Shown in pieces: positions 1,498 to 55,427 of a stretch of DNA of 64,000 nt (position 1 is its first letter; each line of letters begins with the position of its first letter). The notes below the pieces were generated by a model, which was not told the DNA's origin, made no database searches, and worked only from the letters and a program-made list of their open reading frames with translations. The DNA is from Rhodocaloribacter litoris (GTDB taxonomy: Bacteria > Bacteroidota > Rhodothermia > Rhodothermales > ISCAR-4553). Location: contig NZ_CP076718.1 of the NCBI RefSeq assembly GCF_011682235.2, positions 2,724,622-2,788,621 on the forward strand. Reading direction: 5' to 3'. A program made the position numbers and the translations under genes.

Positions 1498-2601
1498 GTG
1501 GCGGCGTGCCCGGGGTGTGCCCACCGGTCGATGACGGCGGCGGAGAGCGCGGCGCAGAAGACCGGCTGGCTCCGCGAGCGCCTGGCGCCGTGGGCGGATC
1601 GGCTCGCCCCGCTGGAGGCCGTGCCGGAGCCACAGCGGTGGGGCTACCGCGAGAACGTGTGCCTGTCCACCGCCTGGGTGGATGGCGTGTGGCACTTCGG
1701 CCTCCGGCGCCGGGATGAGCTGATCCCCATCCCGGACTGCCCCGTGCACGCGCCGCGCGTCCGGGCGGTGGTGCGGAGCCTGGCGCGCGTCCTGCCGCCG
1801 GGGCCGTCCTTCCCCATGGTGTACCTGGTGCAGTCGCGAGCGCAGGTGGTGCTGGTGGTCAAGGCGCGTGCGGTGGAGGCGGCGGACGCGCTGGGGTCGG
1901 TGCTGGGGGAGGCGCTGGCGGGCGCGGGCGTCGAGGGGGTGTGGCTGCACCTGAACCCCTCGGCGGGGCGGCGCGTCTTCGCCAGGCGGGCATGGCGGCT
2001 GCTCTGGGGCGTCCCCCGCTCGCGCGACGCCGACGGGCTCCTCTACGGCCCGGCGGCCTTCAGCCAGCTCCTGCCCGTGCTGCACCGCCGCGCCCTCGAC
2101 GCCGCCGAGGCGTTCCTCGCGCCGGCCCCCGGCACGGCGGTCGTAGACCTCTACTGCGGCACGGGCGCCAGCCTGGTGCGGTGGCTGCGGGCCGGGGCCG
2201 CCGCGGCCGGCGTCGAGCTGGGTGGTGAGGCGGTGGCCTGTGCCCGCGAGAACGCCCCGGACGCCCTGATCCTGCGCGGGGCCTGCGCCCAGCGCCTGCC
2301 GCAGCTCACCGCCTGGGCCGAGGGCCACACCGGCCCCCGGCGGCTCTACGCCAACCCGCCCCGCACGGGCCTCGAGCCCGAGGTGCTCCGGTGGATCGCC
2401 GGCGTCTACCGGCCCGGCCGCCTGGCCTACCTCTCGTGCAGCGCCGGCACCCTCCGCCGCGACCTCGACGCCCTCACCGGCGCCGGCTACCGCGTCGCCC
2501 GCCTCGTCCCCTACGACTTCTTCCCGCAGACCTACCACGTAGAGGTGCTGGCGCTGCTCGAAGATGTGTCTCCTTCTCGCTCACCCACTTACTCCGCGTA
2601 A
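1498..2601 (+). CDS. TrmA/RlmC/RlmD-type RNA (uracil-C5)-methyltransferase
   Basis: Predicted S-adenosylmethionine-dependent enzyme that methylates C5 of a uridine in rRNA or tRNA. Visible motifs are the SAM loop VDLYCGTG (residues 216-223), the NPPRTGL motif (286-292), the catalytic cysteine in YLSC (Cys314), and FFPQTYHVE (341-349), close to the family signature DMFPQTSHVE. Cysteines at 4, 7 and 81 (CPGC and PDCPVH) may be iron-sulfur ligands as in RlmD. The TRAM domain usual at the N-terminus is absent, so the protein is short at 367 residues. The GTG start at 1498 is chosen because GGGAGGGG lies just upstream. The stop is 2 bases before the next start, so the two genes are probably co-transcribed. 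The exact target base is unknown. Confidence 0.88.
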   Translation: MAACPGCAHRSMTAAESAAQKTGWLRERLAPWADRLAPLEAVPEPQRWGYRENVCLSTAWVDGVWHFGLRRRDELIPIPDCPVHAPRVRAVVRSLARVLPPGPSFPMVYLVQSRAQVVLVVKARAVEAADALGSVLGEALAGAGVEGVWLHLNPSAGRRVFARRAWRLLWGVPRSRDADGLLYGPAAFSQLLPVLHRRALDAAEAFLAPAPGTAVVDLYCGTGASLVRWLRAGAAAAGVELGGEAVACARENAPDALILRGACAQRLPQLTAWAEGHTGPRRLYANPPRTGLEPEVLRWIAGVYRPGRLAYLSCSAGTLRRDLDALTGAGYRVARLVPYDFFPQTYHVEVLALLEDVSPSRSPTYSA

Positions 2602-53612: not shown

Positions 53613-53695
53613 ACGTCCCGTGAAGCTTCCGTTATTGATCCAGGGACATTAACGGTATATTAACGAAGGAAAGGCCGCTGGTCCGTTATTGGTTC

Positions 53696-53725
53696 TTGCC
53701 TGTTTGCAGAAGGAGCCGTATCTTG
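53696..53725 (+). promoter_or_regulatory. Bacteroidota-type promoter candidate TTG-N20-TATCTTG
   Basis: TTG (53696-53698) and TATCTTG (53719-53725) are 20 bases apart, close to the Bacteroidota sigmaA pattern (TTG, then TAnnTTTG). The promoter before the right-edge TonB receptor (62692-62721) has the same layout. It would start a transcript of about 85 nt ending at the hairpin 53791-53817. Two copies of CCGTTATTG (53629-53637 and 53683-53691) flank an ATTAACG direct repeat just upstream. Confidence 0.4.
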
Positions 53726-53790
53726 GGGCACCTCATGCGGCCTGGGCACCTCCTGGCAGGTCGCTCCGTCGCGTCATGACATGGGCAACC

Positions 53791-53817
53791 AAAAAGCTCG
53801 GCTCGGCCGGGCTTTTT
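53791..53817. terminator. Bidirectional intrinsic terminator
   Basis: AAAAAGCTCGGC (53791-53802) pairs with GCCGGGCTTTTT (53806-53817) with one G-U pair and a 3-base loop. The run of five Ts on each strand suits termination in both directions. On the plus strand it can end the rhomboid transcript or a short RNA begun at about 53732, and it insulates the large RNA downstream. Confidence 0.8.
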
Positions 53818-53906
53818 GCGCCGGGGCCTCTCCTTTCATCGTACGCCCCGGGCGGGTGTGGATATCTTTGTGCATCGTTTGTGGATTAAAACCCGCCGTT
53901 CGTGGC

Positions 53907-53935
53907 TTGACTTCCCTCGCCCGCCGCGATATACT
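53907..53935 (+). promoter_or_regulatory. Near-consensus sigma70 promoter of the large RNA
   Basis: TTGACT (53907-53912), a spacer of exactly 17 bases, and TATACT (53930-53935) form the best sigma70-type promoter in the window. An AT-rich GATTAAAA lies about 20 bases before the -35 element. A start is expected near 53942, directly before a 5-bp hairpin. Confidence 0.75.
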
Positions 53936-53941
53936 GCTCTC

Positions 53942-54740
53942 AGTGCCTGACGGCACGGTTCCTTGACGCGATGGAGTCTCTGGGCTGCATGAGGTCGGCC
54001 CGCAGCGGGTCGGAAGACCCGGCGGGGCCGATGCGACGCCCCGGGAAGCGGCGTGGAAGACGGGCCTCCGGGCCGGTCGGAAGCGGTCGCTTTTCGGATG
54101 CCGGTGCAGGCCCCGGCCGGACGGGCCTACTGTGTTGCTGCTGTCACGACAGCGGGGCGCAGAGGTACGAACCAGGCGGGGTGCCATCTCACGTACCGGC
54201 ATGGCACGGCGCGGGCGAACCGGGAGCGCTCCGGCGTTCCGGTGATCGCCGCACCGGGGCCGGCGAGACCCCGGCGGCCGTGCATCGACCCCGGCGAACA
54301 CCGGGGAGGATGGCGGCACGACCGATGCCCTGTATCGCCTTCGATCCCACAGGCACCGGTTCTTCCGGTGGCCGGGACGAGGCGCACGGCAGGGCATGCT
54401 ACCGTGGCAGCGATGCCGCGGGAATCGGGTCGGGCGCTTCGGCAGCGGGCAGGTAGCAGCGGGAAAGGCACGCCGCAAGGCCCCTTTCCGGCACGATGCC
54501 TGTCCGAAACCGTGGCGGGCCGAAATCCATATAGACCCGTGGTTCCACGTCGTGTGCCCATGCGGCGTGGATAGGCGTCCCGGCGACCACCGGGGGCGCG
54601 GAAACCCACCCCGTCGATCAGACGGGAGAGACGGGCCTCCCGGCTGGTTTGGAATGGACACCCCGGTGATCCATCGAACCAGGGGAGGCCGTCGCGTCGA
54701 GGAAATAGCTGGCAAGCTGCCCGCGGGGGCGGCTTTTTTT
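53942..54740 (+). ncRNA. Large (about 800 nt) highly structured RNA, family not recognised
   Basis: A protein-free region bounded by a sigma70 promoter and an intrinsic terminator. CCTTGACGCGA (53961-53971) pairs with TCGCGTCGAGG (54692-54702): 11 bp with one G-U, closing the molecule on itself. Inside are many exact local helices. Examples are CGGGTC-GGAA-GACCCG (54006-54021, GNRA loop, on an outer stem 53995-54003/54022-54031), GGCC-TCCG-GGCC (54063-54074, UNCG loop), GGCA-GCGA-TGCC (54406-54417, GNRA loop), 54254-54259/54269-54274, 54289-54294/54301-54306 and 54354-54359/54365-54370. Longer-range helices are ATGCCCTG/CAGGGCAT (54325-54332/54390-54397), GCTACC/GGTAGC (54398-54403/54452-54457), and a two-part 13-bp stem at 54635-54649 with 54677-54689. 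GGTACG/CGTACC (54164-54169/54192-54197) and GTGCCA/TGGCAC (54181-54186/54202-54207) interleave, as in a pseudoknot. Frames crossing the region give no protein-like sequence. Motifs of tmRNA, RNase P RNA, SRP RNA and group II introns were not found. Confidence 0.72.
54716..54740 (+). terminator. Intrinsic terminator of the large RNA
   Basis: GCTGCCC (54716-54722) pairs with GGGCGGC (54727-54733), with one G-U pair and a 4-base loop, followed by seven Ts (54734-54740). It begins 13 bases after the 3' strand of the closing helix and ends 27 bases before the glycosyltransferase start. Confidence 0.85.
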
Positions 54741-54767: not shown

Positions 54768-55427
54768 GTGGACCGCCCGGCTCCCCTCACCGCCGTCGTC
54801 ATCAACTACCAGACGCCCGACCTGCTGGAGACGGCGGTGCGTTCCTTCCATCGCGCCTATCCGGTCGTCCCCCTCCTGGTCATCGACAACGGCTCGCGGG
54901 ACGATTCGCGGGCCCGCATCGAGGCCCTCGGGCAGGAACTCGGGCCCGTCCTCACACCGCTCCTGCTCGAGGAGAACATCTACCACGGCCCGGCCATGCA
55001 CCGGGCGATGATGCACCTCCAGACGCCGTACGTCTATTTCTTCGACAGCGACACCGAGACGAAGCGCCCGGGTTTCCTCGAAGCCATGCAGGCCCGGCTC
55101 GAAGCCGACCCGATGCACTACGGCGCCGGGAAGGTGGTGCGGGTGAACCGCCGCGGGTTTGCCGATCCGAAGGGGACGATCCCGGTGCTCGCCAGCGCAC
55201 ACATGCTGCTCCGGCGCGCGGTGTACCTGCAACTCCCGCCGTTCATCCACCACGGCCTGCCCGTGCTGAAGAACTGTGCCGCCGCCGCCGAGCGGGGCTA
55301 CCGGCTGGTGGATTTCCCCATCGAGGACTACGTGACGCACTTCGGGCGAGGAACGGCCCGGCGGTACGGCTACGGGCTCGGCCTGCGTAGCCGGCTGGAC
55401 TACCTGCTCAACAAGCTCGGGCTGTGA
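54768..55427 (+). CDS. Family 2-like glycosyltransferase
   Basis: 219 residues from a GTG at 54768, which has GGGG about 6 bases upstream. The GT-A fold is visible from the first strand: LTAVVINYQTPDLLETAV, then LLVIDNGSRDDS and the metal-site FFDSDTETKRPGF (DSD). A C-terminal helix-rich part includes HMLLRRAVYLQL. It probably transfers a sugar from a nucleotide donor in the cytoplasm. There is no membrane helix, and the acceptor is unknown. A longer frame starting at 54396 would run through the RNA terminator and the structured RNA and is rejected. No other glycan gene is adjacent. Confidence 0.82.
   Translation: MDRPAPLTAVVINYQTPDLLETAVRSFHRAYPVVPLLVIDNGSRDDSRARIEALGQELGPVLTPLLLEENIYHGPAMHRAMMHLQTPYVYFFDSDTETKRPGFLEAMQARLEADPMHYGAGKVVRVNRRGFADPKGTIPVLASAHMLLRRAVYLQLPPFIHHGLPVLKNCAAAAERGYRLVDFPIEDYVTHFGRGTARRYGYGLGLRSRLDYLLNKLGL

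Follow-up and report, generated by a model that had tools for sequence, protein, structure and literature searches.

A large structured RNA of Rhodothermales and a small RNA predicted to bind it

A large noncoding RNA gene

The window analysed here is a 64,000-nt stretch of the Rhodocaloribacter litoris genome (contig NZ_CP076718.1, positions 2,724,622 to 2,788,621); coordinates are those of the window, and the features located in it lie on the forward (+) strand. It is well supported, by homologues, folding z-scores and the lack of an Rfam match, that positions 53942-54740 encode a large noncoding RNA absent from Rfam. We place its start from the promoter and its end at the terminator. The promoter, at 53907-53935, consists of a -35 element (TTGACT, 53907-53912), a 17-nt spacer and a -10 element (TATACT, 53930-53935), as the original prediction for this DNA had read it, and almost every homologue has it at the corresponding position. 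It is followed by a 5' hairpin (GUGCC UGAC GGCAC, 53943-53956) that is conserved in alignment A1, and then by the near-invariant 5' strand of a closing helix, P1 (53959-53971). Its 3' strand (54692-54704) is an exact complement over 13 bp, so that the helix of 11 bp originally noticed between 53961-53971 and 54692-54702 is exact and also slightly longer than thought. A hairpin that we call C (54544-54571, with the loop UGCCCAU at 54555-54561) and a terminal hairpin adjoining P1 (GGCCUCCC/GGGAGGCC, 54634-54690) complete the recognisable structure. P1 directly precedes the terminator, a hairpin with a T-run at about 54714-54738 where an intrinsic terminator had indeed been predicted, and a T-run terminator also lies 3' of P1 in most homologues.

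The RNA folds much more stably than its composition would suggest, with an MFE of -481.6 compared with -407.7 (sd 5.0) for dinucleotide shuffles (z = -14.8). The mean folding z-score was -7.9 in 12 relatives and -0.5 in flanking control segments. The arms of the terminal hairpin change together across loci (GAACCUC/GAGGUUC, GGCCUCCAA/UUGGAGGCC, UGGCCCUG/CAGGGCCA and GGCCUUU/AAAGGCC). The stem of the C hairpin is wholly different between families, while its loop, UGCCCAU, is retained except where a small RNA described below changes too. Conservation thus covers the two ends and one hairpin, that is, the promoter, 5' hairpin, P1, C hairpin, terminal hairpin and terminator. Members differ in length, between about 0.4 and 1 kb, and their middle parts cannot be aligned; even the nearest relative (G001) aligns with the query only at positions 1-137 and 600-837, with no alignment in between. 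The proposal of a large noncoding RNA with a gene of its own holds, given the homologues, the covarying helices and the lack of a conserved protein frame, but the length is not fixed at 800 nt. Most of the dozen nested helices that accompanied that proposal fall within the non-alignable middle. So do two interleaved 6-bp helices (54164-54169/54192-54197 and 54181-54186/54202-54207), which exist as exact complements and make up a candidate pseudoknot.

A comparison with the 4227 Rfam models gave no match above the gathering threshold in the window or in six homologous loci, and relaxed thresholds returned only chance-level matches. The large RNA is not a divergent RNase P RNA, as a normal RNase P RNA is present elsewhere in the genome. 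The three longest open reading frames overlapping it have no Pfam match and the middle is conserved in neither length nor frame, in keeping with the earlier view that no protein-like frame crosses the region. As to a type I toxin-antitoxin system, in which one RNA encodes a small toxic protein, the check covered chiefly these three frames and the length, which varies among members. The large RNA is long, highly structured and noncoding, with its own predicted transcription unit, which is the kind of RNA to which OLE, GOLLD and ROOL belong.

A small RNA gene upstream

The stretch of about 330 nt between a rhomboid gene and the large RNA contains a second conserved gene, for a small RNA of about 90 nt with its own terminator (53729-53817). 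It lies about 0.2 kb upstream of the large RNA on the same strand and is preceded by a promoter (TTGCCT-N17-TATCTT, 53696-53724) whose TTGC...TATCTT spacing is conserved across loci. We aligned the small RNA across 52 loci, among which it is about 90-120 nt long, begins near ACCUCAUGC and ends in a terminator. The order of its parts is ACCUCAUGC-N-GCCUGGA, a hairpin, CUCAGUCGCG, a linker with AUGGGCA and the terminator; one segment, GUCGCG, is similar to the 3' strand of P1. With a covariance model built for the small RNA (R2), the gene is found in all 56 genomes that carry the large RNA, at no less than 39 bits, and the other matches of the model are terminator-like noise of at most 33 bits. 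Transcription of both RNAs is predicted from sequence and energy.

In two genomes (G014 and G055), a 2-kb cassette of two genes is situated between the small and large RNA genes, and both RNAs are kept, indicating that the two are separate genes. Loci L115 and L121, from two related genomes, have an insertion between the RNA genes, at about 0.1-2.3 kb upstream of the large RNA. One of its genes encodes an AAA-ATPase-like protein of about 410 aa and the other a protein of about 215 aa, and the insertion resembles a defence cassette.

Elements upstream of the two genes

Upstream of the small RNA, an exact 9-bp repeat, CCGTTATTG, occurs at 53629-53637 and again at 53683-53691, just before the -35 element. 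It is conserved in nearly all homologues: the nearer copy is found at about -46 in most of the 52 loci and the second at about -97 to -129 in 38 of them. No copy turned up in a 400-kb sample of the rest of this genome. The repeats are likely the binding site of a regulator.

The spacer between the two RNA genes contains different elements, namely three DnaA-box-like sites (TGTGGATAT, TGTGCATCG and TGTGGATTA; 53857-53888). Such sites, called by consensus match only, occur 92 times in 54 homologous spacers, where 4.7 would be expected from shuffles, and they form an array in 50 of these spacers. They are phased at 11-12 nt, at about -97, -85, -73, -62 and -51, so that the array ends just before the -35 element of the large RNA. 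This position suggests that transcription of the large RNA follows DnaA activity or the replication cycle. As the upstream elements of the two genes differ, the two seem to be under separate control.

The boxes, together with a parB gene 5 kb away, raised the idea that the locus is the chromosomal origin, oriC. We reject this, as dnaA lies 454 kb from the locus in this genome (G000) and 730 kb away in G008, and the GC-skew minimum is far from the locus in G034 (the minimum in G000 is too broad to decide alone). Two dnaA-like genes were seen in five genomes (G024, G034, G058, G029 and G013), a feature not evidently associated with the presence of the two RNAs.

Distribution in the order Rhodothermales

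Homologues were sought by BLASTN and then with a covariance model, the route that the original prediction had proposed, and covariation is present among them. BLASTN matched 44 of 99 related genomes. With few exceptions the match involved the first 140 nt (the promoter and 5' block), and in some genomes it involved the last 240 nt. With a covariance model built on the 5' block (R1), the large RNA was found in 56 of 114 genomes of Rhodothermales, in essentially one copy per genome. Applied to 394 genomes of the phylum, R1 gave real matches in Rhodothermales only. Two marginal matches elsewhere in the phylum were rejected as members, since they match the 5' hairpin alone. In L071 (about 1501-1527, minus strand) and L073 (about 1501-1520), both from distant members of the phylum, the 5' hairpin GTGCCTAACGGCAC is followed by (A/T)GTT and the rest of the RNA is absent. 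We also scanned named genomes with a DNA pattern, which occurred in MAGs named as Rhodothermales, Rhodothermia and 'Bacteroidetes' and in the cultured Roseithermus sacchariphilus. Pattern matches in other phyla scored at most 22 bits with R1 or were not reported by it, and were discarded; viral contigs had no match to the pattern.

In most carriers the same rhomboid gene precedes the large RNA by 300-550 nt, and the RNA is followed by HAD, GNAT and aminotransferase genes; this constant neighbourhood indicates vertical inheritance. Four non-carriers have kept the neighbourhood (G075, G013, G072 and G032); in these, the rhomboid gene is followed directly by HAD, with neither RNA. Both RNAs are present in 56 of 56 carriers, and both are missing where the surroundings of a non-carrier are comparable. 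Whole clades of the order lack the pair, so it must be dispensable. It is absent from the genomes that we take to be Rhodothermus (G017, R. marinus DSM 4252) and Salinibacter (G013). These are the best-known genera of the order, which may be why the pair was missed.

No Cas or other associated protein gene was found at the locus, where the neighbours are rhomboid, glycosyltransferase, HAD and GNAT genes. The glycosyltransferase gene (family 2; 54768-55427), between the large RNA and HAD, is missing in some lineages. G066 (L087) has two copies of the HAD and GNAT-like genes that follow the RNA.

Pairing between the two RNAs

The three segments in which the large RNA is most conserved all have a complement in the small RNA. 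We call them site B (GCGACUGA), site A (GCAUGAGG) and site C, the apical loop UGCCCAU. Site B in the window (CGCGAUGGAG, 53967-53976) overlaps the 5' strand of P1 by 5 nt, and its complement in the small RNA, B' (CUCCGUCGCG, 53764-53773), resembles the 3' strand of P1. Site A (UCUGGGCUGCAUGAGGU, 53979-53995) is complementary to A' (ACCUCAUGCGGCCUGGG, 53730-53746), and the loop of the C hairpin to C' (AUGGGCA, 53781-53787). Across loci, the sites on the large RNA read UCUAGGC-U-GCAUGAGGU (A), CGCGACUGAG (B) and UGCCCAU (C).

Compensatory changes are seen at all three sites. At site B, a U-A pair is replaced by G-C on both sides in this window (AUGGAG with CUCCGU). At site A, L098, L100 and L110 have GAAG with CUUC, and L113 and L108 have ACAUG with CAUGU. 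At site C, UGUCCAU is matched by AUGGACA in L110, GCUCAU by AUGAGC in L119 and L097, and UCCACG by CGUGGA in L098 and L100, and in families f10 and f12 the site is gone from both RNAs. Over the 31 distinct rows of our alignment of the pairing (A3), 96.1% of cells pair in a 23-pair intermolecular structure, a figure that leans towards pairing, as best complementarity was used in part to register the partners of sites B and C and some hand correction was made in a few rows. Slid registers pair in only 29-46% of cells. Both-sided changes occur in 9 of the 23 pairs, compared with 1.6 in shuffles, none of 500 of which reached 9. Pairing was stronger between cognate partners (786) than between permuted ones (772.1, sd 3.1; maximum 785 of 2000). 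The strong conservation of the 5' block leaves many A and B pairs unvaried, and 6 of the 16 pairs of helix 1 are invariant.

Plain duplex energies compared with mononucleotide shuffles did not clearly set the real pairing apart from GC-rich shuffles, and we used cofolding with dinucleotide shuffles in place of this calculation. Cofolding of the 5' segment with the small RNA gave a mean ddG of -23.2 kcal/mol, compared with -9.1 for shuffled small RNAs, and 50 of 52 loci fell below every shuffle. When the full-length RNAs were cofolded, all P1 pairs were lost in 7 of 7 loci, at a ddG of -7 to -27 kcal/mol; such thermodynamic cofolding takes no account of tertiary structure, proteins or co-transcriptional folding. 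In all, binding between the two RNAs is very probable, and comparison supports both of them and their pairing well, as it does their co-occurrence and the box array. The original prediction had captured the large RNA but lacked the small partner, the DnaA-box-like array and the use of the 5' block as a predicted small-RNA site.

A possible strand-exchange switch

We propose that the locus encodes a two-RNA system, and think this account probably right as a whole. The large RNA would close on itself through P1, and the small RNA, transcribed separately just upstream, would bind it in trans at three places: over 8-10 bp at site B, over about 16 bp at site A and through a loop contact at the C hairpin. 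Sites B and A adjoin on the large RNA, with their complements on either side of the hairpin of the small RNA, so that the two helices and this hairpin would form an intermolecular three-way junction. Since the 5' strand of P1 ends with 5 nt that also belong to site B, binding and full closure of P1 should be mutually exclusive. Given this overlap and the complete replacement of P1 in cofolding, we infer that the small RNA probably acts as a strand-exchange trigger, moving the large RNA between a closed, free form and an open, bound one. Conservation of both alternative pairings is the usual sign of a switch, and a switch is what the two RNAs may form. The DnaA-box-like sites would add a further layer: transcription of the large RNA, and with it the ratio of the two RNAs, would follow DnaA activity and the replication cycle. 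Our reading of the switch and of DnaA control draws on sequence and calculated energy. The most specific version, a chromosomal switch made only of RNA, in which a dedicated small RNA opens P1 and the supply of large RNA is tied to DnaA and the replication cycle, is tentative and on balance doubtful.

The main rival is a permanent structural role for the small RNA, as one subunit of a stable two-piece RNA or RNP that does not switch. Perfect co-occurrence, a three-point contact that includes a loop-loop site and very favourable hybrid energies would all suit such a particle, and related large RNAs make RNA-only complexes with conserved intermolecular contacts (PMC12286853). We nevertheless think it rather unlikely, as the complementarity to P1 has been retained although the bound form would break P1, and as the separate promoters and different upstream elements suggest separate control. 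It seems improbable that the small RNA regulates mRNAs, with the large RNA as a decoy (sponge). Small RNAs with a single-stranded 5' seed do often target mRNAs, and the sites on the large RNA are near-perfect enough for a sponge. However, GGCTGCATGAGGT of site A is unique in the genome, where matches with up to two mismatches are no more frequent than for a reversed-pattern control; the small RNA coevolves with the large one, at three sites; and 400-1000 nt of structure would be superfluous in a sponge.

Two further explanations were considered. The DNA might act chiefly as a control locus bound by DnaA, in the manner of datA or DARS, in which the RNAs matter only as transcription through the locus. 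A phased array in most homologous spacers and a parB gene nearby would fit this, but it leaves the covarying RNA helices and the intermolecular covariation unexplained, and the position relative to dnaA varies; we regard it as very improbable. Still harder to credit is that the region is merely a GC-rich intergenic stretch, structured without function or else coding. High GC does yield long chance reading frames and stable folds, yet the z-scores of 13 members are controlled for dinucleotides, promoters and terminators are conserved, the overlapping frames lack Pfam matches and the joint absence elsewhere is clean. The compensatory changes within helices and between the two RNAs refute this explanation as far as sequence goes.

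Relation to known RNAs

The nearest known RNAs in size and style are OLE, GOLLD and ROOL, and the nearest in principle are RNA I and RNA II of ColE1. Like the large RNA described here, OLE, GOLLD and ROOL are hundreds of nucleotides long, with elaborate structures and independent noncoding genes. They form homo-oligomers, for which intermolecular RNA contacts with covariation have been reported (PMC12286853). The large RNA differs from them in having no Rfam match, in its hosts and in that its conserved contact is with a dedicated second, small RNA rather than with another copy of itself.

In ColE1, an RNA of about 100 nt binds a structured noncoding RNA of several hundred nucleotides and alters its folding, thereby controlling plasmid copy number. 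Here too a small RNA would bind a large one, with refolding predicted by cofolding only. Unlike in ColE1, the small RNA is encoded on the same strand, at a separate upstream locus, pairs through three discontinuous segments and belongs to a chromosome, hundreds of kb from dnaA; it is therefore not an antisense RNA of the ColE1 type, which is encoded on the opposite strand and fully complementary. The pair also recalls crRNA and tracrRNA, two separately made noncoding RNAs joined by base pairing, but the locus has no Cas gene. With datA and DARS of E. coli it shares a cluster of DnaA-box-like sites in a noncoding region off the origin, although here two conserved RNA genes flank the putative sites. 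We know of no described system in which a chromosomal large noncoding RNA has a dedicated, coevolving small RNA partner, and found no description of either RNA in Rfam or in the literature searched (open-access papers only). The suggestion that the large RNA was undescribed has thus held up, and the pair appears to be new as a system.

Large structured bacterial RNAs are few and their roles mostly unknown. The one described here comes with a built-in handle, in that covariation reveals its partner, its binding sites and a predicted conformational change, all of which mutation and compensatory mutation can test. If the link to DnaA is true, it would tie a large noncoding RNA to the control of replication or the cell cycle.
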